Positions 28,090-41,049 of a stretch of DNA of 64,000 bases are shown here, one piece after another (positions within the stretch are counted from its first letter, which is position 1; each line of letters opens with the position of its first letter). A program made the translations under genes and the position numbers. Location: assembly GCF_003946045.1 (NCBI RefSeq), contig NZ_RHNW01000001.1, forward strand, positions 186,001 through 250,000. Reading direction: 5' to 3'. Source of the stretch: Levilactobacillus mulengensis. Lineage in GTDB: Bacteria > Bacillota > Bacilli > Lactobacillales > Lactobacillaceae. A model generated the notes under the pieces. That model was not told the origin of the DNA. It searched no databases and worked only from the letters and a program-made list of their open reading frames with translations.

Positions 28090-28314
28090 AAGCGCAAAAA
28101 AATCCCCACGAGAATTCACCGAGGCAAATTCACGTAGGGACGAAAAAATTTTCGCGGTTCCACCCTACTTCTAGTCACAGACTGACTAGCAGCTTACTTG
28201 GAAACGACTCCGAATGTGCCAACCCACAGCACCCGTTATCCGGCTAACACTACCCCGGACTCGCTGAGAACAACCACTGCGTTTTTCATTCATCATAATC
28301 GACTTATTTAACTG
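28090..28314 (-). ncRNA. T-box riboswitch, glycine
   Basis: Leader of glyQS. The T-box sequence AGGGTGGAACCGCG is at 28153-28166, the terminator stem (TCCC..GAATT with AATTC..GGGGA plus seven T) at 28099-28142. The probable specifier codon is GGC at 28218-28220, followed by ACA as is usual. Uncharged glycyl-tRNA would pair with specifier and T-box to stabilise the antiterminator and switch the operon on. Confidence 0.93.
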
Positions 28315-28320
28315 AGTTTT

Positions 28321-28349
28321 ATGATAGTCGTCTGGGGTGGGGTTGTCAA
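28321..28349 (-). promoter_or_regulatory. Promoter of the glyQS T-box leader
   Basis: Consensus TTGACA at 28344-28349, 17-base spacer, TATCAT at 28321-28326 on the minus strand. It begins only 21 bases beyond the stop codon of the accessory gene at 28370. Confidence 0.85.
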
Positions 28350-28369
28350 TGGATTTAGGGGAAACGGTA

Positions 28370-30481
28370 TTAATCCGTGTTGGCAGCGGAGGCCCCCTTT
28401 ATTTGGTTTGTCCGATGCCGCCGAAGATCAGTGTATTCTCGTAAATATTTAAAGGGAAACGGAATGACGGTGTATTGATTCAATCGGACAAAGCCGACCT
28501 GCATGAGTGATTCTAGCTCATGGAAAATTTCACACACGTCTGCCTTCGGTTGCAAACTTCCAATCGCCACAATTTTTTTCAAGGGAATCGCCCGCTTCTG
28601 CTGGGCTTCTAGCGGATTATTGCGCCCGATAAAGTAATAGGTATCGCCATTTAATTCAAGCAAGCCCATCCCACAAGTTCCTGTCCAGTATGCTTCGAAC
28701 GCCTTTTGCCGAATCGGCAACTTTAACCATTGACCCTGAGCCTGATGAAACGCGGCGTTGAACGCTTTCATGGCGTTCAGCTTCCAGCTCAATTTAAGGG
28801 TCATTCGCAACTCTCGAATCGTCAACTCGGTCTTCCGTAGCTGTGTGAGTTCGGCAATCAGCTGTTGCTGCTGCGACACGTGCTTCTGGTCGATAACCAA
28901 CCCCTGGGCAACCGTCAACAGATTCTGTCGACTAACTAAATTTTCTTCGCTGGCCGAATGCAACTGAGAAGTAATTTTTTCTGCATCTGGGACCGTGATC
29001 AAATCCGTCCCATAGATGGCAAAGAGACCAGATTGGCTTTGAATAGCCCCCTGTAACAAATAGGGATTTTCCCCAGTTGCAGCCAAAATTCTTTTAACTG
29101 TTTGCTGGAGCTCAGTTGCGGTAGAATCGTTGATTTCGCCTTGAATATGTGTCTCTTCAAAAATCACTCGTTGATCAGGTGTAATGGTTAAGCGCGTCAC
29201 AACAAGGTTTAGCGGTTCCGCCCGTTTGCTCAGTCTATTGAAAAACAAATACTTAAAGTGACCAGCGGTGTCTGCCTTCACAGCTGTAGGCAACCGTAGC
29301 TTTCCGGCCGAAATATCCCGTTTAACTAGCAGCTGGACTACCGTCATCAAGAATTGATTATTCGCCATCAGGTCAGCTTGCTGGTCACCCTGCCACTGAT
29401 ACTGCTGTTTGTCCGCATCAAAGTCCCCAAACTTCTCAAAGGTTAAATGTTGAATTACTTGATCATTACGACCAACTTGATAACGTGGGTCCTGCTCGTC
29501 CAGCACGACTTGCAGATTTAATCCTGCCACAGCTCGCTCACCGACCGAGACTGTCACTCCCGCCTGTACAAGTTGGGGGCTGGTCTGGACTCTGTCCGCC
29601 AAATGCGCGACTAACGCCCAAACGTGGGGTTCGCCAGCATCACCGACAAAATGCAGACTCTGACCTTTTAGTAACGCCATCACCTGCTTGATTGCTGGCA
29701 CCCTTGTTTTTGGCGAATAAGCCATCACCTCACTGGCGTGAAAATGCGGCAACTGGCAGAAACAATCCCCGTACGCCTGCTTGAGATCTTTCAGAAGGGC
29801 ATTCTGAAGGCCCACCTTGGTTTGTGCGAAATCAGCCAGTGTCCGCAGCGTAAAGAAATCAATCGTGTTTTTCCGGCCATGAACATGATGCTGGTCCCAC
29901 AGTTGTCCGGGTGCCATAGCTGACCACCTCAGGCACCCGTCACTGGCTAAAAAACCCATTTTTTGTGGTGCCACCACTGGTTTAAAGGTCCGCGTGCGCA
30001 ATTGTAAAATATGATCTTTTAAGTCGACCTCGACCGCAACCAACGTTTTTTCTGTTTGTCTATGCACTAATAACAAACGGTCAGTGGCTCGCTGATTTCT
30101 GAGTACGAGTTGATCATCAAACTGACATTGCTTGACTGCTTTGAGCATGAGCATAACAATTGTGTCCGGGGTAATTTTCTGCTGGATAGCCTGCTGCAGT
30201 GTCACAATTTTTGGGTGAACGCCGGTGATCTCTTGCGGAATTGGCTGGCTTTTGGCCATCAATGCTAAATACCGACTGGGACCAATTGCCTTACCTGCCT
30301 GAGCATCGTATTGCTTCGCCAACTTATGAATCGCTAAAACTGGGCAAGCATCGAACCAACTTGGTAGTTTACCGGGATGGTCCGTTTCAACTAAAATTAA
30401 CCGCAATCGCTGATTAAAGCCGACTTCATTGAATTCATAGTCCACTAAATTTGTCAAAGCTACCGGTACGTTATCTACCAT
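28370..30481 (-). CDS. Unrecognised 703-residue protein, partner of the helicase-nuclease
   Basis: Second gene of a two-gene operon; its ATG overlaps the end of the helicase gene by 11 bases. No signal peptide or TM segment. I cannot name the family. Visible parts: an N-terminal alpha/beta region; beta-strand-rich segment at about 134-167; a region near 320-398 with an Asp-rich loop, VIQHLTFE and a hydrophobic helix ending in KRDI; a predicted helical stretch with Gln runs at 535-585; and a C-terminal beta-rich domain (about 596-690) with GLLELNGDTYYFIG and PFPFKYLREY. The arrangement of helicase, nuclease and a large third component recalls pPIWI-RE modules, but I see no clear DEDX Argonaute residues. 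AT-richer than the flanking core genes. Probably acts with the helicase on nucleic acid; defence is an inference. Confidence 0.7.
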   Translation of the reverse strand: MVDNVPVALTNLVDYEFNEVGFNQRLRLILVETDHPGKLPSWFDACPVLAIHKLAKQYDAQAGKAIGPSRYLALMAKSQPIPQEITGVHPKIVTLQQAIQQKITPDTIVMLMLKAVKQCQFDDQLVLRNQRATDRLLLVHRQTEKTLVAVEVDLKDHILQLRTRTFKPVVAPQKMGFLASDGCLRWSAMAPGQLWDQHHVHGRKNTIDFFTLRTLADFAQTKVGLQNALLKDLKQAYGDCFCQLPHFHASEVMAYSPKTRVPAIKQVMALLKGQSLHFVGDAGEPHVWALVAHLADRVQTSPQLVQAGVTVSVGERAVAGLNLQVVLDEQDPRYQVGRNDQVIQHLTFEKFGDFDADKQQYQWQGDQQADLMANNQFLMTVVQLLVKRDISAGKLRLPTAVKADTAGHFKYLFFNRLSKRAEPLNLVVTRLTITPDQRVIFEETHIQGEINDSTATELQQTVKRILAATGENPYLLQGAIQSQSGLFAIYGTDLITVPDAEKITSQLHSASEENLVSRQNLLTVAQGLVIDQKHVSQQQQLIAELTQLRKTELTIRELRMTLKLSWKLNAMKAFNAAFHQAQGQWLKLPIRQKAFEAYWTGTCGMGLLELNGDTYYFIGRNNPLEAQQKRAIPLKKIVAIGSLQPKADVCEIFHELESLMQVGFVRLNQYTVIPFPFKYLREYTDLRRHRTNQIKGASAANTD

Positions 30482-33400
30482 TTAAAAAGTCCCCCATCAT
30501 TTTTTCCTGTTCAGGCGTCAAAGCAAATTTCCCCTGTGCATCTAACAACTGCGGTACCTCCATAATTTGTCCATTACGCGTTATTTTCGGCACAAATTTT
30601 TGTGTCCCAGTCGTTTCAATCAAATTTACGATGAGGACCCGCCTACTGTGTAGCTCTTGCGCATCAGTCAGACGATTCAGTTTATCTTGCACATGCCTGC
30701 GTTCTGCTATGGCCGATTGATTGTGAGGATGCCGCCAATTCTTAAAATCAAGATAAACGTGGTCCGCCGTTTGAAAATCAAAGAGCTCATGATTATCTGC
30801 AGAGAGCGTCCTGAGTTTAACCGACCAGCGGTCCTCAAGAATAAATTTGCCGGCAACCTCGCCAAGTATCCCCAAGTAATTATCAAACTGAACCGGATTG
30901 ACAATAAACCCAGTCTTCTCCCAAGTGGTTGCCCACCCCTGAGAATCGAAATATGCCTGCATCCCCGGATATTTCAGCAGGGTAGGCAGTCCCGCCGTCT
31001 CAGCAGAAACTTCTTCCGTCCCACGACTATCCGTTCCAAACGTAAAGTTCTCACCGGATCGGGCAACCTGATATTGACTTACCTCGCTGTCTAAATAGGC
31101 ACCCTCTGGTTTCTTCTCCCACTGATGGTACTGATCAAAAGTGGGTGTGGGCTGGCATAATAAGTGCTCCCTAAAATCTTGATACCGGTTAGCAGTCTTG
31201 GTATCCTTCTGAAGTTGGCCCGCCATTTCATTAACCGCATGCTGCGTTTCCAGAGTTCGGTTAGACCAGCGTTCAAACTGAATTTTCTCGCTCGTCTGAA
31301 CCGAATCGGCCGCTTCTCGTTGCAGGTTGCGAATGGCCTGGGCTTCAGGTCCCAACTGATAGTCAGCCAGCATGGATACGTTAAAGTAATTCCGGACATC
31401 CGCTCCTAAAATTACGAGTGTTTCTGGCAGCTTATTAAATGACCGGTCCATTCGACCGAGTGCTTGCAAAATAACCTGCGTATGGGCGCCAACATAACTA
31501 ATTGTGTTTCGAAATTGTTTGGCCGGAATTCCTAAGCTTTGCTTCTTAGCATATTTACTAATATCCAGGAGCGAGACCTCACTATTGTCTGCCAAACTCA
31601 GCAATTCATAGCAGGCACGAATCCACTGCGCCTTACTTTTTTCGGTTGCCACTTGCGGAACCAGGGTGAAAATATTCGTGACCCGTCCCAAATAGATTCC
31701 GGCTAAATCCACCATCTGTCGTCGTGGATCATTCGAATTGGCATCAGCCGGAGATATGTCAACTGTCTTACCTGCCTCAAGTGTTCCGATGTTGTGTTGA
31801 AGGTTTTGACCAACCCCCAAGGTGGCGTACGAGCTCAGTAAGTACACCCGTGTTTCTTCTTTGGATGGCAGCTTAAGTGCGGCCGTAATTTGGTCGTCAA
31901 CCAATTGCTCATCTGTCGTGAACTTTTTGGCAATTGGTCGTAATTGTGGTTGATGCGGCTCATCTGTACACAGTAACTGTGACAGTAATTTAAAGACCTG
32001 CGTCACAAAATTCAGTGACATCTGAATTTCATTTTCCTCCCCTTTTACCTTGGGCAATACGCTTTGTAATCCCAGGAAGGTCGTCTTATCTGAAAATCCC
32101 AGAAAGCAGATAAAACTCATGAACAAATCCAAATAGCGTTGCTGAACAAACGAAACCAGTTGCCGTTCACCCTTACTCGGATAAGTGCTATAAATTTCTC
32201 GCATCTTTTGTTTGACCAGCATCTCAAGTGTCCTTAACTGTCCCAGCTGCTCGGGACCCAAGGCAACCTCAGGGCACAGTTCATGAATTAATTGGCGCAT
32301 GCACTCGCCGCTCTCAGCAGAGACCTGTACCTTAGCCGTTTCCTTGACAATCACTTTAGCCCCATTTGCCCGACAGCGCTGACTAGTGTCAAATTGCTTC
32401 TGAACACTTATAGGTAAATCCGCCAACCCATCTATGAGTCGGTCGCCTAACTGCTCACGAATAAAGTTGAAATCGAAGTTGTTAATCACCGTATCAACCT
32501 TAACCGTCGCGGACATGCCGACCACTACCCCACGTTTAGCCAGATGAATGAGAAACTTCTCTGGGGTTTCTTGGACTAACGCCGCACTAATCTTTGTTCG
32601 ATTCAAATGGGCATCACTATCCGTTAAGGCAATCAGTTGCAGGCCGTTTCGTTGCAGGTAGCGGCCACACTGACCATCAGTTGTGGGCTTCACCGTTTTA
32701 CGGTATTTCAAAGGCGCCTGATGATACATGCCGAGGACTAATTTCTTGGAGTCAACGGATAACCACAGGCAATCACAAATTGTGGCAATTGCATCTTCTA
32801 GTTCCAATTGATTTTCAATCACCAATCGTTGCGCGTTAACTTGCTGACAATACTTCCCAGCCCATTCGACCAACAGGTGAATAAAGCTACTGAAAAACTG
32901 ACTCATCCTTTGAATCATTTGATAAAATTTTAAATCATTCGTCACAACACGTTGTCCGGATAAAACAACCCGCCTGCCTGGAAGGTCACGGTGACTCCAC
33001 CACCCGTGACTACTACTAATCGTGAGACTGTCCAGATTAAAGATAAAATTAGTCGTCGTCATCGCATCAATTGTTTTATAGTCTTCCGTTAGTTCATACT
33101 GTGCGGCTAGGTGATTGACTCGTTTCTTTAGTTGACCAAATTTTCCCCGCTGCCGCAGCACAGACATTACGTCTTCTGGTCGTTTCTTTTGTAGATTATT
33201 GACGCCGCTTCGGATTTCCCGAAACAATGACAGAAAATCCAGTGGGACCTTCGTTGCGTCATCAATAATTTTATCGACCAGTTGAGATTTCATCTCATCA
33301 ACTTCATCTAAAATAACCGTGGCGTTGCCGAGGCAACTAGTGGCAGTGACTGGGATGGACCTCTGACTATAAAAAGACGGAAAGGTCCGCACAAACTTTG

Positions 33401-34082
33401 CCCATGTGAGCAGCACCAACTGGTATTTTTTAAGATTGATTTCGGGAAAGTACTGATTCAAATAGTGTGCTAAGTCCGTCTCATCCGCATTGACATATTC
33501 TTCAAGCGTCACCTTATCCGCCTTCGTCAGTGGGTCGCTGAGCATTAACGTTCGTCGCAATATTTTGATAACTTCTCGTTTAAATGTTGTGTACGCCAAT
33601 TTTAAATTTTGAAAATCATTACGGCCGGCCAGGGACTGTTTCTCTGGCTGCTGATTATAGCGTTCATGATAGGTTTGCAAGTTACCCAAGGCTTGTTTAA
33701 CTTTTTCACTTGCTGATAGTTCTGCTGGGAATTGACTGGTAATGACCTCACCCGTTATTTCCTCTAAGGCGTGTAATACAGCGATTGTCCGGTTGAGATA
33801 GGCTTCACGAGCTGCTGAAGTCTTAAACGGACCATTTTTCTGCTCAAATTCATGCGCAACGGCTGCCCGAAAATCTGCGATATGCAAATTGTTCTTTTTA
33901 ACAGTGACGAAAAAGAAACGCCTGTCAGTTGTGTTGACAACCGTTTGACTAATATAGTGAATAATTCCGTATGTCTTCCCACTACCAGTTGGTGCTGGCA
34001 CGGTCACCAAACAACCAGGGTCGTCCGCCGTGGTCAGCCGCTGAGCTTTACCAAAGATCGCGGAAAAATCTAATCCAGTCAT
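30471..34082 (-). CDS. SF2 helicase fused to a PD-(D/E)XK-like nuclease domain
   Basis: 1203 residues, cytoplasmic. Helicase motifs: Walker A PTGSGKT at 31-37, Walker B LDEVDE at 258-263, motif III MSAT at 523-526, a motif V-like SSYATLGVGQNL near 750-761 and motif VI QALGRMDR at 873-880. The 220-residue stretch between motifs I and II and the region 527-745 hold large helical insertions. No four-cysteine Fe-S cluster is present, so it is not a classical DinG/XPD enzyme. The C-terminal 150 residues look like a restriction-type nuclease: E1075 in GILGEVAGK, D1102 in FDF and D1112-F-K1114. Start ATG has AAGGAG upstream and its own promoter. AT-rich compared with neighbours. Likely an antiviral or anti-plasmid enzyme (inference). 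Confidence 0.85.
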   Translation of the reverse strand: MTGLDFSAIFGKAQRLTTADDPGCLVTVPAPTGSGKTYGIIHYISQTVVNTTDRRFFFVTVKKNNLHIADFRAAVAHEFEQKNGPFKTSAAREAYLNRTIAVLHALEEITGEVITSQFPAELSASEKVKQALGNLQTYHERYNQQPEKQSLAGRNDFQNLKLAYTTFKREVIKILRRTLMLSDPLTKADKVTLEEYVNADETDLAHYLNQYFPEINLKKYQLVLLTWAKFVRTFPSFYSQRSIPVTATSCLGNATVILDEVDEMKSQLVDKIIDDATKVPLDFLSLFREIRSGVNNLQKKRPEDVMSVLRQRGKFGQLKKRVNHLAAQYELTEDYKTIDAMTTTNFIFNLDSLTISSSHGWWSHRDLPGRRVVLSGQRVVTNDLKFYQMIQRMSQFFSSFIHLLVEWAGKYCQQVNAQRLVIENQLELEDAIATICDCLWLSVDSKKLVLGMYHQAPLKYRKTVKPTTDGQCGRYLQRNGLQLIALTDSDAHLNRTKISAALVQETPEKFLIHLAKRGVVVGMSATVKVDTVINNFDFNFIREQLGDRLIDGLADLPISVQKQFDTSQRCRANGAKVIVKETAKVQVSAESGECMRQLIHELCPEVALGPEQLGQLRTLEMLVKQKMREIYSTYPSKGERQLVSFVQQRYLDLFMSFICFLGFSDKTTFLGLQSVLPKVKGEENEIQMSLNFVTQVFKLLSQLLCTDEPHQPQLRPIAKKFTTDEQLVDDQITAALKLPSKEETRVYLLSSYATLGVGQNLQHNIGTLEAGKTVDISPADANSNDPRRQMVDLAGIYLGRVTNIFTLVPQVATEKSKAQWIRACYELLSLADNSEVSLLDISKYAKKQSLGIPAKQFRNTISYVGAHTQVILQALGRMDRSFNKLPETLVILGADVRNYFNVSMLADYQLGPEAQAIRNLQREAADSVQTSEKIQFERWSNRTLETQHAVNEMAGQLQKDTKTANRYQDFREHLLCQPTPTFDQYHQWEKKPEGAYLDSEVSQYQVARSGENFTFGTDSRGTEEVSAETAGLPTLLKYPGMQAYFDSQGWATTWEKTGFIVNPVQFDNYLGILGEVAGKFILEDRWSVKLRTLSADNHELFDFQTADHVYLDFKNWRHPHNQSAIAERRHVQDKLNRLTDAQELHSRRVLIVNLIETTGTQKFVPKITRNGQIMEVPQLLDAQGKFALTPEQEKMMGDFLNGR

Positions 34083-34111
34083 TTACTCACTCCTTCACTT
34101 ATGTATTTTCC

Positions 34112-34140
34112 AAGTTAGCAGTGTGTAAAATGCCTGTCAA
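34112..34140 (-). promoter_or_regulatory. Promoter of the helicase operon
   Basis: Consensus TTGACA at 34135-34140, 17-base spacer, TAACTT at 34112-34117 on the minus strand, 30 bases ahead of the start codon. Confidence 0.65.
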
Positions 34141-34205
34141 TGTGCTTTACAACCTTGATACAAAAGCTTTTCGAAGTCTTTACAGACATACGCTTTAGCA
34201 ATTAA

Positions 34206-34247
34206 AAAAGCACATCCACCAGCTCAAGTCGAGCGGTCGAATGTGCT
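34206..34247 (-). terminator. Terminator of the aldo/keto reductase gene
   Basis: AAGCACAT...ATGTGCTT stem with six T on the minus strand, ten bases past the stop codon. Confidence 0.88.
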
Positions 34248-34257
34248 TCATGATTCA

Positions 34258-35223
34258 TTAAATTTCGCGGAAAAACTTCTTAAAGCCAAATAGTTTATCA
34301 ATACGAGCTTCATACTCGGTTGGAATCTCCAGGTCAACGGCCTTTAAATTATTCTGTAGCTGTTCGGGTTTGCTGGCCCCGATGATCAGGCTGGAGATAC
34401 GGGCATCCCGCTTGTCCCAGGCCAACGCAAAGGTTGCCAGATCCGTGTCCAATTCTGCGGCCATCTTAGCGAGTTCTGCCACTTTTGCCAAATTTTCTGG
34501 CACCAGTTGCGCCTGCAGGTCTGGTTGGAACGTGCCCCGGGATCCGGCCGGTGCGGGCTGACCCTGCCGGTATTTCCCAGTCAATAGTCCCTGTGCTAAA
34601 GGTGAAAATGGTACGACGCCCAGTCCAAGCTCGCCACACAGGTCCAACAGCTCATGTTCAATGTAGCGATCAAACATGTTGTACTCGGGTTGCACCACGG
34701 TAATTGGGTGTAGCCCACGTTCTTGAATGATCAGCTCCGCCTTTAAAATTTGCACCGGCGTCCATTCGCTGACCCCATAGTAGAGGATTTTGCCTTGATC
34801 GACCAAGCCACTCAAGGTCGTCAGGGTTTCTGCTAGCGGCGTCTGTGGATCGAAGCGGTGGCAGAAGTACAGATCCAAGTAATCCGTTTGGAGATTGGTC
34901 AGCGACTGGTCGATGGATTCGGTGATATGTTTCCGTGACAGGCCACGGTCATTGACGCCTTTGCCAGATGGAAAGTAAACCTTACTGGAAACCACCAATT
35001 CCTTGCGGGGGAACTGTTGGAGGGCCTTGCCCAAGAAACGTTCGGCGGCCCCGCGACTATACACGTCCGCACAGTCGAAATAGTTAATGCCACTTTCATA
35101 GGCCAGTTTGATGCTCTGCGCGGCCAGGTCCTGTTTGGCGGCATCACTAACATCCGTGAGCCAGCTGCCCAATGCTAATTCACTGACGCGTAAGCCTGAT
35201 TTGCCTAATTGCCGATACTTCAT
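34258..35223 (-). CDS. Aldo/keto reductase family oxidoreductase
   Basis: 321-residue NADPH-dependent (beta/alpha)8 oxidoreductase. The catalytic tetrad can be placed: D50 in INYFDCADVY, Y55, K81 in VVSSKVYFP and a histidine in LYFCHRFDP near residue 121. NADP-binding VVPFSPLAQGLLTGKY and the late IIGASKPEQL also fit. Resembles the voltage-gated potassium channel beta-subunit-like (YhdN/Kvbeta) group. Substrate unknown. AAAGGGAG precedes the ATG. Has its own terminator; lies downstream of the MarR-MFS pair on the same strand. Confidence 0.93.
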   Translation of the reverse strand: MKYRQLGKSGLRVSELALGSWLTDVSDAAKQDLAAQSIKLAYESGINYFDCADVYSRGAAERFLGKALQQFPRKELVVSSKVYFPSGKGVNDRGLSRKHITESIDQSLTNLQTDYLDLYFCHRFDPQTPLAETLTTLSGLVDQGKILYYGVSEWTPVQILKAELIIQERGLHPITVVQPEYNMFDRYIEHELLDLCGELGLGVVPFSPLAQGLLTGKYRQGQPAPAGSRGTFQPDLQAQLVPENLAKVAELAKMAAELDTDLATFALAWDKRDARISSLIIGASKPEQLQNNLKAVDLEIPTEYEARIDKLFGFKKFFREI

Positions 35224-35327
35224 ATGTAAGAACTCCCTTTATGTCAAAATAGTAAGAATTCAATTAAAATTCAATATGAAGTTAGTTTACCACGACAACG
35301 ACAACTGGCCCATTGATTTGTTAGCCA

Positions 35328-36485
35328 TTAAGCCAGGCCACGTCGATTTTCCCAATAGACCCCGACGATGGCGGGCAACGTGATGGCCATGACCGGATAG
35401 AGCCAGATCCATGGCAGGAAGGTCGTAATGACCCCCGCCAGCATCGGCCCCAGCGTCATCCCCAGGTCGATTCCGATGTAGAACGTGCTGTTGGCAAGTC
35501 CCCGGTCGGCCTTGGGAACCAGCGTCAGTGATTTGGCCTGGCAAATGGAGAACATCAGTCCATAGCCGGCAGCTAAACCCACCGCACCCACAATCAGCAT
35601 GGCCCAGTTGTCCATATCGGTCAGTCCCACGATACCAATCAGGTTGCACCCCAGGCAAATCCAGAAGAATTTTCTAAACGGCACTCGGTCAAAGGCATCC
35701 CGAAGAATTAACCGCATCGCCAACAGAACTAACGCGTAGACGGGGAAAAAGGCCCCCGCCGGAATGGCAAAGCCCCGGTGAAAGACGTAGCTCACGATGT
35801 ACGTCTGCGTGGCAAAGTATGGTAGTGAGAACAACAGGAGAATGGCCGCCACCGGCACGACTTTGGGTTGAACCAGCCGTAATTTTTCGTGCTGGCCCTT
35901 ACTTTTACGGTAATCGGGATGGGGCACACTCTTATCCCCAACAAACTGAATCGTCAGGAGCAACAGGATAATGAAGCCAGTTGCCACCCAGAAAACACTG
36001 CGGTACCCAAAGTGATGGTACAGGAACACACTAACGGCGGGTCCAATTGCCATGCCCAAGGCATTTGCAATCCCGTAGATGCCCATCCCCGCGCCGATAC
36101 GGTCGGCCGGTAACAGACTTGCCATCCAGGTCGCCATGCAAACGGAACATAGCGTGTAGCCAATCCCGTTGACGACCCGCCACAGCATGATCAGGGGCAC
36201 CGCCGTGGAGACCCCATACCCAATGCAGGCAATCAAAATAAAGCCGGCGCCGATTGAACTTAAGCGATACTTAGAAAAACGGTCGGTCAGATTCCCTGCT
36301 AACGGCCGAAGAAGCAGTGATGTCAGGTTCATCATCCCGGCAACGATTCCGGCAAGCACACTGTTAGCCCCTACATTACTTGAAAAGCCCGCAATAATGG
36401 GATTGACCAGCATCGGACTCATCAAAAAGAAGAAGCTAGCGGCTAAAACTAATTTAACATCTTTCGTGTATAAGCGTGTTTTCAC
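35328..36485 (-). CDS. MFS transporter, probable drug or metabolite exporter
   Basis: 385 residues with about 12 TM helices. The MFS motif A appears as GNLTDRFSKYR between helices 2 and 3 (residues about 64-74) and a motif C-like ANALGMAIGPAVSVFLYHH follows in helix 5, which points to an exporter. GTG start; the preceding MarR gene ends seven bases upstream, so the two form an operon. The substrate is likely a compound that also releases the MarR repressor (inference). Confidence 0.88.
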   Translation of the reverse strand: MKTRLYTKDVKLVLAASFFFLMSPMLVNPIIAGFSSNVGANSVLAGIVAGMMNLTSLLLRPLAGNLTDRFSKYRLSSIGAGFILIACIGYGVSTAVPLIMLWRVVNGIGYTLCSVCMATWMASLLPADRIGAGMGIYGIANALGMAIGPAVSVFLYHHFGYRSVFWVATGFIILLLLTIQFVGDKSVPHPDYRKSKGQHEKLRLVQPKVVPVAAILLLFSLPYFATQTYIVSYVFHRGFAIPAGAFFPVYALVLLAMRLILRDAFDRVPFRKFFWICLGCNLIGIVGLTDMDNWAMLIVGAVGLAAGYGLMFSICQAKSLTLVPKADRGLANSTFYIGIDLGMTLGPMLAGVITTFLPWIWLYPVMAITLPAIVGVYWENRRGLA

Positions 36486-36491
36486 ACGACC

Positions 36492-36917
36492 TCAGTTCCT
36501 TTCCAAATTTTGACCGATTCGGCCGAGCATCGCCAATAATTGCTGCTGATCGGCGGGCGTGAACCCGGTAAATAGTGCCTGGCTGGTCGTCTTGATGTGC
36601 GCATTTAACTGTTGAAGCTTGTCCCGCCCCGCTGGTGTTAACGCGACCAACTTAGCCCGGCCATCAGCGGGGTTCGGTTGTAAGACTAACAACTGCCGGT
36701 CGACTAGGCGCTTGACCATGAGTCGAGCCGTCTGGTGGGTCACCTGTTGCTGTTCTTTGAAGTCCGTAATCGTTCCCGTGGGATGGTCCGTGAAGAATCG
36801 CAGGGCATCCGCCTGCGCACTCGTTAACGATAGGTTCCGGACAAAGAGATTTCGTTGGTGGCGAATCTGTCGTCCCAGTAAGACTAATTTCCAAGAAACC
36901 AATTGGTCACTATTCAT
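36492..36917 (-). CDS. MarR-family transcriptional regulator
   Basis: 141 residues, winged helix of the MarR type: LTSAQADALRFFTDHP, recognition region ITDFKEQQQVTHQTARLMVKRLVDRQL (key residues given by part), wing with PADGRAKLVALTPAG. First gene of the MarR-MFS operon. A perfect 16-base palindrome overlaps its promoter, which strongly suggests autorepression. Confidence 0.94.
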   Translation of the reverse strand: MNSDQLVSWKLVLLGRQIRHQRNLFVRNLSLTSAQADALRFFTDHPTGTITDFKEQQQVTHQTARLMVKRLVDRQLLVLQPNPADGRAKLVALTPAGRDKLQQLNAHIKTTSQALFTGFTPADQQQLLAMLGRIGQNLERN

Positions 36918-36938
36918 GTCATCACCTCATTGATAATT

Positions 36939-36954
36939 ATACAGCTAGCTGTAT
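36939..36954 (-). promoter_or_regulatory. Palindromic operator within the marR promoter
   Basis: ATACAGCTAGCTGTAT, a perfect palindrome. On the minus strand its right half runs into a consensus TATAAT (-10), and a TTTCAA lies about 17 bases upstream, so a bound dimer would cover the spacer and block RNA polymerase. Nothing further is recognised in 36955-37113. Confidence 0.82.
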
Positions 36955-37113
36955 TGTTTTGAAAGTGAGTAGTTGTTTTCGATTACTATTTTAACCGTGA
37001 AAGCGGCTGAGAATAAATCTAATCCCTTGTGGTTCTGGTAAAGCGGATGCTCACTACTTGCGGAGTCATTCCAATTTTCTCTGTTGCCTTGACTAAGAGT
37101 TGAAAGTTAACGG

Positions 37114-37149
37114 CCAACAGCCGCCACACTCAAACCATGACCGACTATG
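37114..37149 (+). pseudogene. Remnant of a second cytidine deaminase gene
   Basis: 36 bases match the 3' part of the cdd gene at 40431-40466 at 31 of 36 positions and read NSRHTQTMTDYV in frame against NNRHTQIMADYA. No reading frame extends on either side; a stop codon lies just upstream. Confidence 0.6.
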
Positions 37150-37188
37150 TGGCAGGGTCTAATAACTGACCGTATTGAAATACAGGTC

Positions 37189-37229
37189 AAAAAAAGATGG
37201 CGTCCCCAATTTCTGAGGGCACCATCTTC
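37189..37229 (-). terminator. Terminator of the ABC transporter operon
   Basis: AAGATGG...CCATCTT stem with seven T on the minus strand, 34 bases past the last gene of the operon. Confidence 0.85.
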
Positions 37230-37262
37230 TCTCCATCCAACGATAGTCAAATCTTCCATTCG

Positions 37263-37814
37263 CTAGGCTAAAACCGATCCATCATGACCCAGATTCAATA
37301 ACACAGAGTACTTCACAAACTGGTCTGAACGTTCTGGGACCAGGAAGCTAAATCGCGCAGATTGTTGGCGTTGCCGATAGCTGTTAGGAATCACCAGGAA
37401 GCGCAAAGTCACATCTTTTATCGTCGGCTGTTGCCATTCCCTTTCTGTGTAATACCGTCCATCGGGATGTTGCATGCCGCGCGATTGATTACTGATACTA
37501 TACGGAATGTTTAGCCACATATTTTCAATCATATTTAAATTATTGGCGTGAAAACCGTAGTTAGCTGGCTTTATCGATTGCATGAATAAATGCAGCGTGA
37601 CTTCCTTGCCGTCGGTGACTGTTCGCTGCGTGGCTGCCAGCATTTTGAACTGAGCTTTCCGGCTTCCGCTCCATTGATGTGGCTGCACAATTTGCTCGAC
37701 AACTGGCTTGGTCGTCACACCACGATTCAACCGTTGAAACTGCCAAGCACCCCCTAAAACGAAGGCGATAACTACCAGCAGTCCCCCAATAAAGTGCTGT
37801 CGTTTTCTCATCAT
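37263..37814 (-). CDS. Membrane-anchored extracytoplasmic protein of an ABC transporter operon
   Basis: 183 residues. An N-terminal TM helix (about 7-26, FIGGLLVVIAFVLGGAW) anchors a beta-rich domain outside the membrane. The family is not recognised. It overlaps the end of the ATPase gene by four bases and is last in the operon, so it may be an accessory or immunity-like partner of the transporter. Because the ATPase is frameshifted the module may be inactive. Confidence 0.75.
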   Translation of the reverse strand: MMRKRQHFIGGLLVVIAFVLGGAWQFQRLNRGVTTKPVVEQIVQPHQWSGSRKAQFKMLAATQRTVTDGKEVTLHLFMQSIKPANYGFHANNLNMIENMWLNIPYSISNQSRGMQHPDGRYYTEREWQQPTIKDVTLRFLVIPNSYRQRQQSARFSFLVPERSDQFVKYSVLLNLGHDGSVLA

Positions 37815-38436
37815 CTAACGGTCCCCGCTTCAACGCGTAGCTGTCGATCCGCTACGGCGGCAACGAAGGCCTGGTCATGCGAGGCAATCACCAACGTGCT
37901 CCCACCAGCTTGTAATTGTTTTATGTAGGCAACTAATTTCTTGATGCTGGCCGCATCCAACGCATTCGTGGGTTCATCTAAAACAATCAGTTCACTTTTC
38001 CCTAATACTGCCTGGGCAATTCCCAATTTCTGCTTCATCCCTAGCGAAAAGTGACGTACCTTAGCAGAACGTGAAGTCGGCAAATCAAATTCCGTTAATA
38101 GGTCTAACAGCGCATCGTCTGTCACGCCCGGCATCAGATCAGCAATCAGCTGCAGATTAACTAACGCCGAAAACTCCGGGAGTACACTGGGGCCTCAATC
38201 ATAATTCCTGCCGTGATTGGATAGGCTTGACCGACCTTGATGGGGGTTTGTTTGACCCTGATTATCCCTTGCGTTTTCATCAACCCCAGCATGGCTTTTA
38301 AGATAAGCGTCTTGCCAGAACCGTTAATGCCCGTCAATACCGTGACGGTGCCCGCTTCAATCTCCAATGAAACATCTCGTAAGACTGATTGGTGCTTGAA
38401 ACGTTTGCTTACATTTTCCATTTGAATGAGTGCCAT
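37811..38436 (-). pseudogene. ABC transporter ATPase, disrupted by a frameshift
   Basis: The N-terminal part (from ATG 38436, with GGGGGGAG upstream) contains Walker A GINGSGKT and ends early after GIMIEAPVYSRSFRR. The other frame, from about 38175, continues the same protein as EFSALVNLQLIADLMPGV, then SLGMKQKLGIAQ (signature), LIVLDEPTNALD (Walker B) and SHDQ (H loop). Eleven bases separate the two conserved segments where nine or twelve are expected, so one base has been lost near 38176-38187. Without it a normal ATPase of about 208 residues would result. It is either a true pseudogene or a sequencing error. Confidence 0.88.
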
Positions 38437-38446
38437 GGTCTCCCCC

Positions 38447-39109
38447 CTAGCTATCGCGCCAATCAATCAGCCAACGTAACCCGATCAGCGCCACTCCCCA
38501 GCCCAAGCACACAACTAAGGCAGCTACCCAATGACTGCCAAACGGGGCCAGGTGTATGTATTTAAAAAATGGCGAGGCGGGTTGCCGTAATAAATCTAAG
38601 CCGACCACTTCCAACAGCCAGGTACCCAGTACGGCCACGACTTTTTTGCGTAGTGACCAGTACAAAATCAGACTGAGGGTAACAAAGAATCCTTGATGCA
38701 TACCCATTTGCAAGCATCCCCACAGTATAATTTTTACGGCTACCCAATGACCTAAAAAATAGCCTCGCCACAACAGGCCGCCCGTCCATAGTCCCCATAA
38801 CATCCCCTGCAGGATGAGATTTTGGCTCAACAATTGCCAAAACCAAACCCGCTTGCGACCCACTCGACCATAATCCAATAACCGGTAGTCGAAAAGGCTG
38901 AGCCCCGCCATCAAACAGAGGGGCAAATAGATTGTGCTGAACAGCTGACTGCTGAACAGATACGCATAAATAGTGGGCGCAGTTACCCCTGGTTGAAACG
39001 TTTCTCGTGACAGGTCAGCTAAAAAGAGGCTCATGAATACAATGAGCAGACACCCACTGCGCCAACGCAACCGTAACTGATGAAATTGCTGTCGCCAGAG
39101 TCTACGCAT
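38447..39109 (-). CDS. ABC transporter permease-like membrane protein
   Basis: About 220 residues with six predicted TM helices and a basic N terminus (MRRLWRQQFHQLRLRWR). Family not recognised, but position between another multi-TM protein and an ABC ATPase makes it the probable permease. The ATG at 39109 is chosen; a TTG seven codons upstream is possible. It overlaps the end of the upstream permease gene. Confidence 0.75.
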   Translation of the reverse strand: MRRLWRQQFHQLRLRWRSGCLLIVFMSLFLADLSRETFQPGVTAPTIYAYLFSSQLFSTIYLPLCLMAGLSLFDYRLLDYGRVGRKRVWFWQLLSQNLILQGMLWGLWTGGLLWRGYFLGHWVAVKIILWGCLQMGMHQGFFVTLSLILYWSLRKKVVAVLGTWLLEVVGLDLLRQPASPFFKYIHLAPFGSHWVAALVVCLGWGVALIGLRWLIDWRDS

Positions 39110-39887
39110 AAAGGTATCGCCGCCAGCCAACTGTCATCAGCCCAAAAGTGACAACGCCTAAACCTAACGTCAGGACCACTAACGCTGATCCCGTCACGCT
39201 GGCACTAGCCGATTCCTTCAAAAGATTAGCGGGTGCCAAACTGTGGGGCAACCAGTTGAGATTATCCACCATCAGCAGACCAATCTGTCCAAACACCATA
39301 CTACTGAACGCCACAAACGGCTTAGTCGTAAAAAAGCTTAAGCCCGTGACCAGACACGATAGCAAGGCGCCCCAGACAAAGACCATGCCAATCGACAACA
39401 TCGCGTGCCAGAATGGATGCGCATAGAACAATCCCACATTGATCGTATTATCCTGAATCACCAAGACATTGCTATGTAGGAGATTATCCGGCTGTAAATT
39501 GGGTAGAACTAGTAAATAGGCCAGCAAGTTCATGACTAGCGGTCCACTCACGACTAGACCCCCTAAAATAAACGACCAACCGAAATACCCCCGAAAAATC
39601 GTTTTTACCGACCGTTTCATCCGCAACTGATAGTGAAACCCATTGCGCAGGTCCTGTTGCAACAGACTCCCCACCGGCAACACTGCAAGCAGCGGTAGTA
39701 ACAAATAATACGCCATCGCAAGTGCACTAAAATTATCAATGCCAAGCCACTCCGTATAGGGTGACAAGAAGAACGGATTGTGTCCAACTAATCGGGGCAA
39801 CTTCTGTAAGAATTGTCCCATTGCCACACTAACTGCCAGTCCAAACGCTACCATGAGCCAGCGGCGGTTCAAGCGGTGCCAAATCAT
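39102..39887 (-). CDS. ABC transporter permease-like membrane protein
   Basis: 261 residues, about six TM helices with a short extracytoplasmic loop after helix 1 (LVGHNPFFLSPYTEWLG). First gene of the four-gene operon 39887-37263 (two membrane proteins, ATPase, anchored protein), a layout typical of exporters involved in peptide self-protection or export. A TTG two codons earlier is an alternative start. Substrate unknown. Confidence 0.75.
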   Translation of the reverse strand: MIWHRLNRRWLMVAFGLAVSVAMGQFLQKLPRLVGHNPFFLSPYTEWLGIDNFSALAMAYYLLLPLLAVLPVGSLLQQDLRNGFHYQLRMKRSVKTIFRGYFGWSFILGGLVVSGPLVMNLLAYLLVLPNLQPDNLLHSNVLVIQDNTINVGLFYAHPFWHAMLSIGMVFVWGALLSCLVTGLSFFTTKPFVAFSSMVFGQIGLLMVDNLNWLPHSLAPANLLKESASASVTGSALVVLTLGLGVVTFGLMTVGWRRYLYA

Positions 39888-40117
39888 CCCCAAATTATTC
39901 TCCCCCAGTGATCACAAAATCTTGCCAGTCATTTTCTGAAAATCGTATCTCCAGAATAGCATGTCGAACGACAATCGCCTACCTTAATCATATCTATCCA
40001 CTAAGGGACTACTTATCATATTGATTTTACGAATGGAATATCCACCCGCCAACTGTTCTGCACTACCGATTGGTTTGTGCTAAAATTAACCTTAATTTTA
40101 TTGGGAGGTGATTGCTT

Positions 40118-40534
40118 TTGGACATTTGGGAACAGCTTTACCAGGCGGCAAAACCGCTCTACCACCCGGAAGCCGTCAATGAGTTTATCTACGCACACAA
40201 CGTGGTCTGTGCGTTGCAAAGTAAGTCTGGCCAAATTTTCACAGGATTTTGCATCGAGGGCTTGTCCGGCACCCTTAACCTCTGCGCTGAACGAGTCGCA
40301 TTGCTCAACATGTACACGACTAGTAGTGAAACAGAAGTCCAACGCTTAATCGCCTTTCGCGACGCCCCACCAACCGGCATCAGCGGCATGCCCTGTGGTG
40401 TTTGTCGCGAAACTCTCTTGCAGTTTTCACCCAACAACCGCCACACCCAGATCATGGCCGACTATGCGACCAGACGGACCGTCACCCTAGATGACCTCCT
40501 CCCAGGTTGGTGGGGCGACATCAAGACAAGCTAA
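40118..40534 (+). CDS. cdd: Cytidine deaminase
   Basis: 138-residue homotetrameric-type cytidine deaminase that converts (deoxy)cytidine to (deoxy)uridine for pyrimidine salvage. Zinc-site motifs are intact: NLCAERVAL (Cys ligand and catalytic Glu) and MPCGVCRETL (two Cys ligands). The start is probably TTG at 40118, nine bases after GGGAGGTGA; another TTG at 40112 is too close to it. Encoded alone. A fragment of a related gene lies at 37114. Confidence 0.92.
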   Translation: MDIWEQLYQAAKPLYHPEAVNEFIYAHNVVCALQSKSGQIFTGFCIEGLSGTLNLCAERVALLNMYTTSSETEVQRLIAFRDAPPTGISGMPCGVCRETLLQFSPNNRHTQIMADYATRRTVTLDDLLPGWWGDIKTS

Positions 40535-40665
40535 TGTATACAAAAAAAACTGATTGGTATTTTCTGTTGAAGTTTTCGGTCTTCTAACCCATTAATTCAC
40601 TGGCAGCAACCTGCTACAATCACGATGCACAAGCACAGGTGACTTCCCAGTGTAAGGGATAATTG

Positions 40666-40694
40666 TTGATTGAGCACCCTCAGCATGATATTAT
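40666..40694 (+). promoter_or_regulatory. Promoter of the antitoxin RNA
   Basis: TTGATT at 40666-40671, 17-base spacer, TATTAT at 40689-40694 on the plus strand. There is no reading frame with a ribosome binding site behind it. Nothing is recognised in 40535-40665. Confidence 0.7.
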
Positions 40695-40700
40695 GCATGA

Positions 40701-40832
40701 GTAAACGAAAAGACCTGGTGGTTGCACACCAGGCCCTCTCACAGCAAGCCGCTTTAAAGGCGGTAGCTAGAGACAAAACGACAACTAAGACGTCCCGTAA
40801 CCGGCCAAAGTTACATCGGGGCGGCTTTTTAT
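40701..40832 (+). ncRNA. Predicted antisense RNA antitoxin of a type I TA locus
   Basis: Would start at about 40701 from the promoter at 40666. It opens with a strong hairpin (CCTGGTGG...CACCAGG, 40714-40733), has a second hairpin (GCCGC..GCGGT) and ends in a terminator made of CCCGTAAC and GTTA..CGGG followed by five T near 40826-40830. It converges on the toxin gene and would be complementary to the 3' part of the toxin mRNA, as RatA is to TxpA. Confidence 0.6.
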
Positions 40833-40915
40833 TTGTGCTTGTCAATGCACGTCAGCAACGCTATTAAAAACGTGCCAAACAGTAACATCAACGAAAGTGC
40901 CTGAAACACACTCAC
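40829..40915 (-). CDS. Holin-like toxin of a type I toxin-antitoxin system (TxpA-like)
   Basis: A 28-codon frame from GTG 40915 to TAA 40829, too short for routine gene finding. The peptide MSVFQALSLMLLFGTFLIAL has the arrangement of the putative holin-like toxin family of lactic acid bacteria and TxpA of Bacillus subtilis: short polar N terminus, xALxxMLxFG, a single TM helix and a basic, hydrophilic tail (DKHK). AAAGG lies upstream at a long spacing, common in these translationally restrained messages. The 3' end of its mRNA is overlapped by a convergent antisense RNA. Shorter at the C terminus than most relatives. Confidence 0.7.
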   Translation of the reverse strand: MSVFQALSLMLLFGTFLIALLTCIDKHK

Positions 40916-40955
40916 TGACTGCGAAACCTTTCAAAGATTGTCCCATGTCCCCAAC

Positions 40956-41004
40956 AAAATACCGTTCAGAATTTCCAAAATGGAAAAACTGAACGGTATT
41001 TTTG
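40956..41004. terminator. Bidirectional terminator after recO
   Basis: Perfect 14-base stem (AAAATACCGTTCAG with CTGAACGGTATTTT) with T runs on both strands. It lies between recO and the toxin gene. Confidence 0.9.
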
Positions 41005-41049
41005 TGTTTCCTTTTATATTTAACGTTTTCACCAGCCGGAGGAGTTGTT

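Follow-up and report, generated by a model that had tools for sequence, protein, structure and literature searches.

An intact operon assigned to DdmDE plasmid defence at a variable chromosomal site of Levilactobacillus mulengensis

Layout, identity and expression signals of the gene pair

A 64,000 nt stretch of the Levilactobacillus mulengensis genome (RefSeq assembly GCF_003946045.1, contig NZ_RHNW01000001.1, positions 186,001 to 250,000; hereafter, the window) carries two overlapping genes that encode a large helicase with nuclease motifs and a partner protein, and that almost certainly form a DdmDE plasmid-defence operon (Table 1). The open reading frame (ORF) list bore out the coordinates, strand, protein lengths and overlap given in a preliminary description made from the sequence alone. 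Overlaps between ddmD and ddmE were seen in the loci of relatives too, and the overlap in the window can be read as a sign of translational coupling. As had also been claimed, the pair is AT-richer than its surroundings: its guanine-cytosine (GC) content is 0.465, that of the whole window is 0.519, and only four of 234 sliding windows of the pair's size (including those overlapping the pair) showed a GC content as low or lower.

Table 1. Features of the ddmDE locus, in positions of the window
Feature	Positions	Strand	Basis
ddmD, superfamily 2 (SF2) helicase of 1203 amino acids (aa) carrying a PD-(D/E)XK-type nuclease motif at its C-terminus	30471..34082	(-)	ORF, PADLOC, PDB-sequence match, invariant motifs
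ddmE, Argonaute-like partner protein of 703 aa	28370..30481	(-)	ORF call
Overlap of 11 bp, ddmD end and ddmE start	30471..30481	(-)	ORF coordinates
Candidate ddmD promoter, TTGACA, 17 bp, TAACTT, with TGn ahead of the second hexamer	34112..34140	(-)	Read from sequence, aligned with relatives
Ribosome-binding site AAGGAG, 7 bases ahead of the ddmD ATG	34090..34095	(-)	Read from sequence
Hairpin followed by a T run, candidate terminator for the aldo/keto reductase gene upstream	34206..34247	(-)	By eye: AGCACAT ... ATGTGCT TTTTT

The larger protein matched the PADLOC model for DdmD (E = 1.1e-28) and, among PDB sequences, the DdmD of Lactobacillus casei over residues 5-1202 (9ix4/9ixm, E = 1.5e-148) and, as a single sequence, that of Vibrio cholerae (E = 1.7e-30). 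The use of a DdmD family profile against the PDB sequences gave E values of zero for L. casei DdmD and 2.7e-112 for V. cholerae DdmD. The protein has the Walker A, DExD, SAT and QxxGRxxR motifs of an SF2 helicase, and a script check found the helicase residues (G33, G35, K36; D259, E260, D262; S524, A525, T526; Q873, G876, R877, R880) and the nuclease residues (E1075, D1102, D1112, K1114) to be in place. Every one of these was invariant across 30 aligned DdmD sequences (alignment A3, composed of the window protein and 29 of 56 other hits, with 18-88% identity to it), and the residue list of the preliminary description was thus correct. Since the motif residues are invariant down to 18% identity, they are not a product of chance. 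K36 and K1114 align with positions 55 (the Walker lysine) and 1102 (the nuclease lysine) of V. cholerae DdmD, presumably those of the mutants named K55 and K1102. The nuclease region could be aligned with both L. casei and V. cholerae DdmD; judged by motif and homology, the predicted C-terminal PD-(D/E)XK nuclease motif is real.

The partner, which the preliminary description could not assign, is identified as DdmE by PADLOC (E = 2.1e-9) and by matches to the PDB sequences of L. casei DdmE (9iw3, E = 1e-38) and V. cholerae DdmE (E = 1.1e-5). A DdmE family profile matched the same two proteins at 2.2e-211 and about 3e-15, respectively. Two protein-database searches with DdmE agreed in their result, at least six proteins, at least four of them named Levilactobacillus; the wider set of relatives was gathered from genome loci. 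Nineteen DdmE sequences were aligned (alignment A2), further near-identical, split or partial ones being excluded. Only E457 and E682 were acidic in at least 18 of the 19, and this alignment showed no conserved acidic triad such as a slicing PIWI domain has, the PIWI part of the structural model described below being of low confidence.

The pair had been proposed to be a helicase-nuclease system of a new kind, with no kinship to the defence systems known so far. Neither protein reached the cut-off of any Pfam or NCBIfam family, so general annotation leaves the pair nameless, as a new system would be. However, this reading is refuted by the matches that both proteins have to DdmD and DdmE in PADLOC and among PDB sequences, and keeps next to no probability. 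What holds of the proposal is that the operon is an accessory defence module built of a helicase, a nuclease and a paired partner; the system itself has already been described, and the novelty here is an intact Levilactobacillus copy, not a new class of defence. The claim that the pair does not fit Hachiman, Zorya, DISARM, BREX or Cas3 was also upheld. At E values up to 1, neither protein matched the PADLOC models for the first four, and the only PADLOC rows besides DdmD and DdmE were weak ones to Cas3 and mad8 (MADS), with E values of 0.0026 to 0.0089. Kinship with Cas3 was rejected: TIGR01587 scored 13.3 bits against a cut-off of 102.45, over residues 26-59 only, i.e. the Walker region.

The region upstream of ddmD contains a probable promoter. 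Its first hexamer, TTGACA (34140-34135), is perfect, while the second, TAACTT, is weak, with three of six matches; the promoter had been called consensus, which is true of the first hexamer alone. The candidate was absent from the listing of the promoter scanner. Upstream regions from seven of the ten Levilactobacillus carriers were aligned, the other three being left out: TTGACA is kept in four (the source genome included), a fifth has TTGACC, and it is absent in two. Further upstream lies an aldo/keto reductase gene (34258-35223, identified by Pfam), the candidate terminator of which is not in the scanner's listing (the scanner has a loop limit of 8). This hairpin and T run may end the reductase transcript, setting the ddmDE operon apart. 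Downstream of ddmE are two ORFs that we take to be glyQ and glyS, the genes for the glycyl-tRNA synthetase subunits. Between ddmE and glyQ the scanner reported a near-consensus promoter on the minus strand (TTGACA-17-TATCAT, 11/12, at 28349-28321), which probably drives glyQS.

Distribution and genomic site

DdmD was detected in 23 of 397 sampled Lactobacillaceae genomes, belonging to eight of 40 genera. Among 35 Levilactobacillus genomes ten contained DdmD, and the same ten contained DdmE. The nearest named relatives, by DdmD identity, were those of Levilactobacillus wangkuiensis (94%), Levilactobacillus lanxiensis (94%) and Levilactobacillus andaensis (88%). Joined, the two surveys gave 25 genomes with a DdmD-family gene. 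In a gene-neighbourhood survey of homologues, as suggested in the preliminary description, ddmE came immediately after ddmD, on the same contig, in 23 of these 25 genomes. In one of the other two, G053, the genes lie at the ends of different contigs; in the other, G384, which has a weak, decayed DdmD hit (E = 3.5e-10, three stops), ddmE was not found.

The pair is accessory, as had been supposed, being present in ten of the 35 Levilactobacillus genomes, and in eight of these ten carriers it adjoins glyQ (in G053 it is ddmE that does so). The remaining two, G397 and G401, have ddmDE elsewhere; they are among nine of the 35 genomes in which no ORF of at least 70 aa separates recO from the glyQ that comes after it. 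In G234 a reductase adjoins glyQ and ddmDE is missing between them, and in G305 the contig ends too close to glyQ for the content of the site to be read. The recO-glyQ stretch (28120-41049 in the window) is strongly variable across the 35 genomes. Its other contents include leucine-rich-repeat proteins (Pfam was run on one member), a reductase, helix-turn-helix and other small ORFs, and a transposase; further ORFs, transporter-like and regulator-like, were provisionally labelled mfs and marR. These differing contents indicate that recO-glyQ is a variable locus of which ddmDE is one cargo.

PADLOC was also run on nine neighbouring or site-cargo proteins: seven had no match, and in the other two the matches were confined to partial domains. 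One of these, with a lactamase fold, hit LmuA (1.9e-5) and PDC-M48B; the other, with a helix-turn-helix, hit RmrA and further models. The interpretation of these matches as further defence systems was rejected; they were read as shared common domains. Separately, an ATPase of the ATP-binding cassette (ABC) transporter type appears to be split in the window into two ORFs (37811-38134, 107 aa, and 38161-38466, 101 aa) that match halves of the Pfam family ABC_tran. The relatives G327, G337 and G399 have a single ORF of 208 aa in its place, and the split reflects either gene decay or an error in sequencing.

Proposed mechanism, plasmid content and decay

Homology to the V. cholerae and L. casei systems makes the DdmDE mechanism the best reading for this operon. 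A review (PMC12409362), in its account of the V. cholerae and L. casei work, describes DdmE, with DNA guides, as recruiting DdmD, the autoinhibited dimer of which comes apart; DdmD then travels along single-stranded DNA from 5' to 3', cutting it, and the target described there for the family is plasmids. One sentence of PMC12904381 interchanges the names DdmD and DdmE. By analogy with V. cholerae and L. casei, DdmE in the source strain would be a DNA-guided long Argonaute, apparently catalytically dead, that uses a short single-stranded DNA guide to base-pair with the plasmid DNA complementary to it. Recruitment of DdmD out of an autoinhibited dimer would follow; DdmD would load onto the displaced strand, translocate by means of its SF2 helicase and cut with its PD-(D/E)XK nuclease, and plasmids would be lost.

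Several observations weigh against the assignment or against the activity it implies. Some of them concern DdmE. The PADLOC DdmE model matched just five of the 19 aligned sequences, indicating that this model is narrow; one of the 19, not that of the window, matched BrxA in PADLOC at 2e-4. Structure prediction, suggested in the preliminary description, was run for the partner. The AlphaFold model, built from a six-sequence alignment, aligned best to DdmE structures, but it was poor (mean predicted local distance difference test score, pLDDT, 51.4; Foldseek global template modelling score, TM, 0.23), and in superpositions on DdmE chains the root-mean-square deviation (rmsd) ran from 19 to 30. 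The Argonaute rows of the VIA list were level with those of unrelated chains (methyl-coenzyme M reductase, 7.5; ribosome entries, 6.9; D-Ala-D-Ala ligase, 6.5), and only the agreement with DdmE chains was used from this model. Finally, four residues past Y334 the K of L. casei DdmE is R in the window protein, a position that varies among relatives. The spacing of the MID motif (Y, K, Q, K) and human AGO2 numbering served as guides in viewing the DdmE alignment.

A further observation concerns decay. Once G384 is excluded, ddmD is interrupted in five of 24 carrier genomes, all outside Levilactobacillus, which makes some of the copies there look dead. In these five loci (L121, L122, L123, L124 and L126) there are stops in G128, G308 and G010, and the gene is split in G324 and G049, in G049 around a transposase-like gene with HTH_38 and rve domains (L123). 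Split ddmE genes occur in G237 and G308. Some of these ddmD and ddmE interruptions may be sequencing errors. Repeated loss of ddmD would point to the system being costly.

Other observations concern plasmids. Strong clearance of small plasmids by DdmDE might be expected to leave carriers without them. However, the replication protein family Rep_3 (PF01051) was not depleted in carriers (matches in 7 of 22, and in 121 of the 375 remaining genomes; Fisher p = 1), in a census that covered one replicon family in draft genomes, ignored kinship and is a weak test of plasmid content. G384, which has a Rep_3 match, was counted there among the non-carriers. In addition, the source genome itself has two contigs with Rep_3 genes, one of 6266 bases and one of 4512 bases. 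The larger (locus L128; contig C20 of G000) has a 62-bp terminal overlap, and is thus a probable closed small plasmid coexisting with ddmDE; a Lactiplantibacillus plantarum plasmid of 6391 bp aligned to 64% of it with 89.9% identity. A gene for a PemK/MazF-type toxin is annotated under the match in plasmids similar to this contig. For the 4512-base contig a terminal overlap was looked for and none was found; its best row (79% coverage, 91.1% identity) lies within a 9351-bp plasmid of Levilactobacillus brevis.

Two alternatives might account for these observations. The operon could be silent or inactive in the source strain, a passenger of the variable locus; the interrupted ddmD copies, the probable 6.2-kb plasmid alongside and the weak -10 box would fit this, but both ORFs are intact, their motifs are invariant and close relatives share the promoter region; this alternative is unlikely. 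Alternatively, a DdmDE-like operon with the same machinery might have phage or conjugative/integrative DNA, not small plasmids, as its natural prey in lactobacilli. The undepleted Rep_3 genes and the small replicons that coexist with ddmDE in the source genome agree with this, yet the studied family members act on plasmids (PMC12409362), and draft genomes with a single replicon family say little about plasmid content; this alternative is distinctly improbable. A related suggestion, rather unlikely in our view, is that the Lactobacillaceae branch of DdmDE tolerates resident small Rep_3 replicons, either because the plasmids have means of escape or because its targets are now different ones. If true, it would offer a natural setting in which to learn what DdmE treats as foreign.

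The assignment as a DdmDE plasmid-defence operon is retained. It adds an intact copy of the system from a Levilactobacillus genome, and the close relatives with and without ddmDE at one chromosomal site provide a natural set for studying the effect of DdmDE on plasmid content in lactic acid bacteria.

Comparison with known systems

The closest known counterpart is the DdmDE of L. casei (PDB 9ix4, 9iw3 and 9ixm), reportedly the subject of work by Huang et al. in Cell Res in 2024; the title of entry 9ixm reads 'Cryo-EM structure of Lactobacillus casei DdmDE bound with DNA'. Both operons consist of the same two proteins, with DdmD matched over its full length, the same helicase and nuclease motifs, and a shared QYTVxPxPxKYLREY block at the C-terminus of DdmE. 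In contrast, the identity to L. casei DdmE was just 20% in structural alignments that used the poor model of the window protein; where L. casei DdmE has Y-x3-K, its window counterpart has Y-x3-R.

The DdmDE of V. cholerae (PDB 8u0j, 8u0u, 8u3k, 9bgk and 9ezy) has the same architecture, including the aligned Walker and nuclease lysines, but is distant, as seen in the low single-sequence match of DdmE. Long prokaryotic Argonautes, such as those of Thermus thermophilus and Archaeoglobus fulgidus, were also compared: alignment of the DdmE model to them is weak evidence alone, as unrelated chains reach the same Z. Slicing long Argonautes have the PIWI acidic triad that was not seen in the DdmE alignment (where the PIWI model is of low confidence), and, unlike these, the DdmE of the window would be expected to depend for its function on its helicase-nuclease partner. 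The genomic setting differs too: V. cholerae DdmDE is placed on a pathogenicity island in PMC12409362, whereas the L. mulengensis operon occupies the variable recO-glyQ spot.

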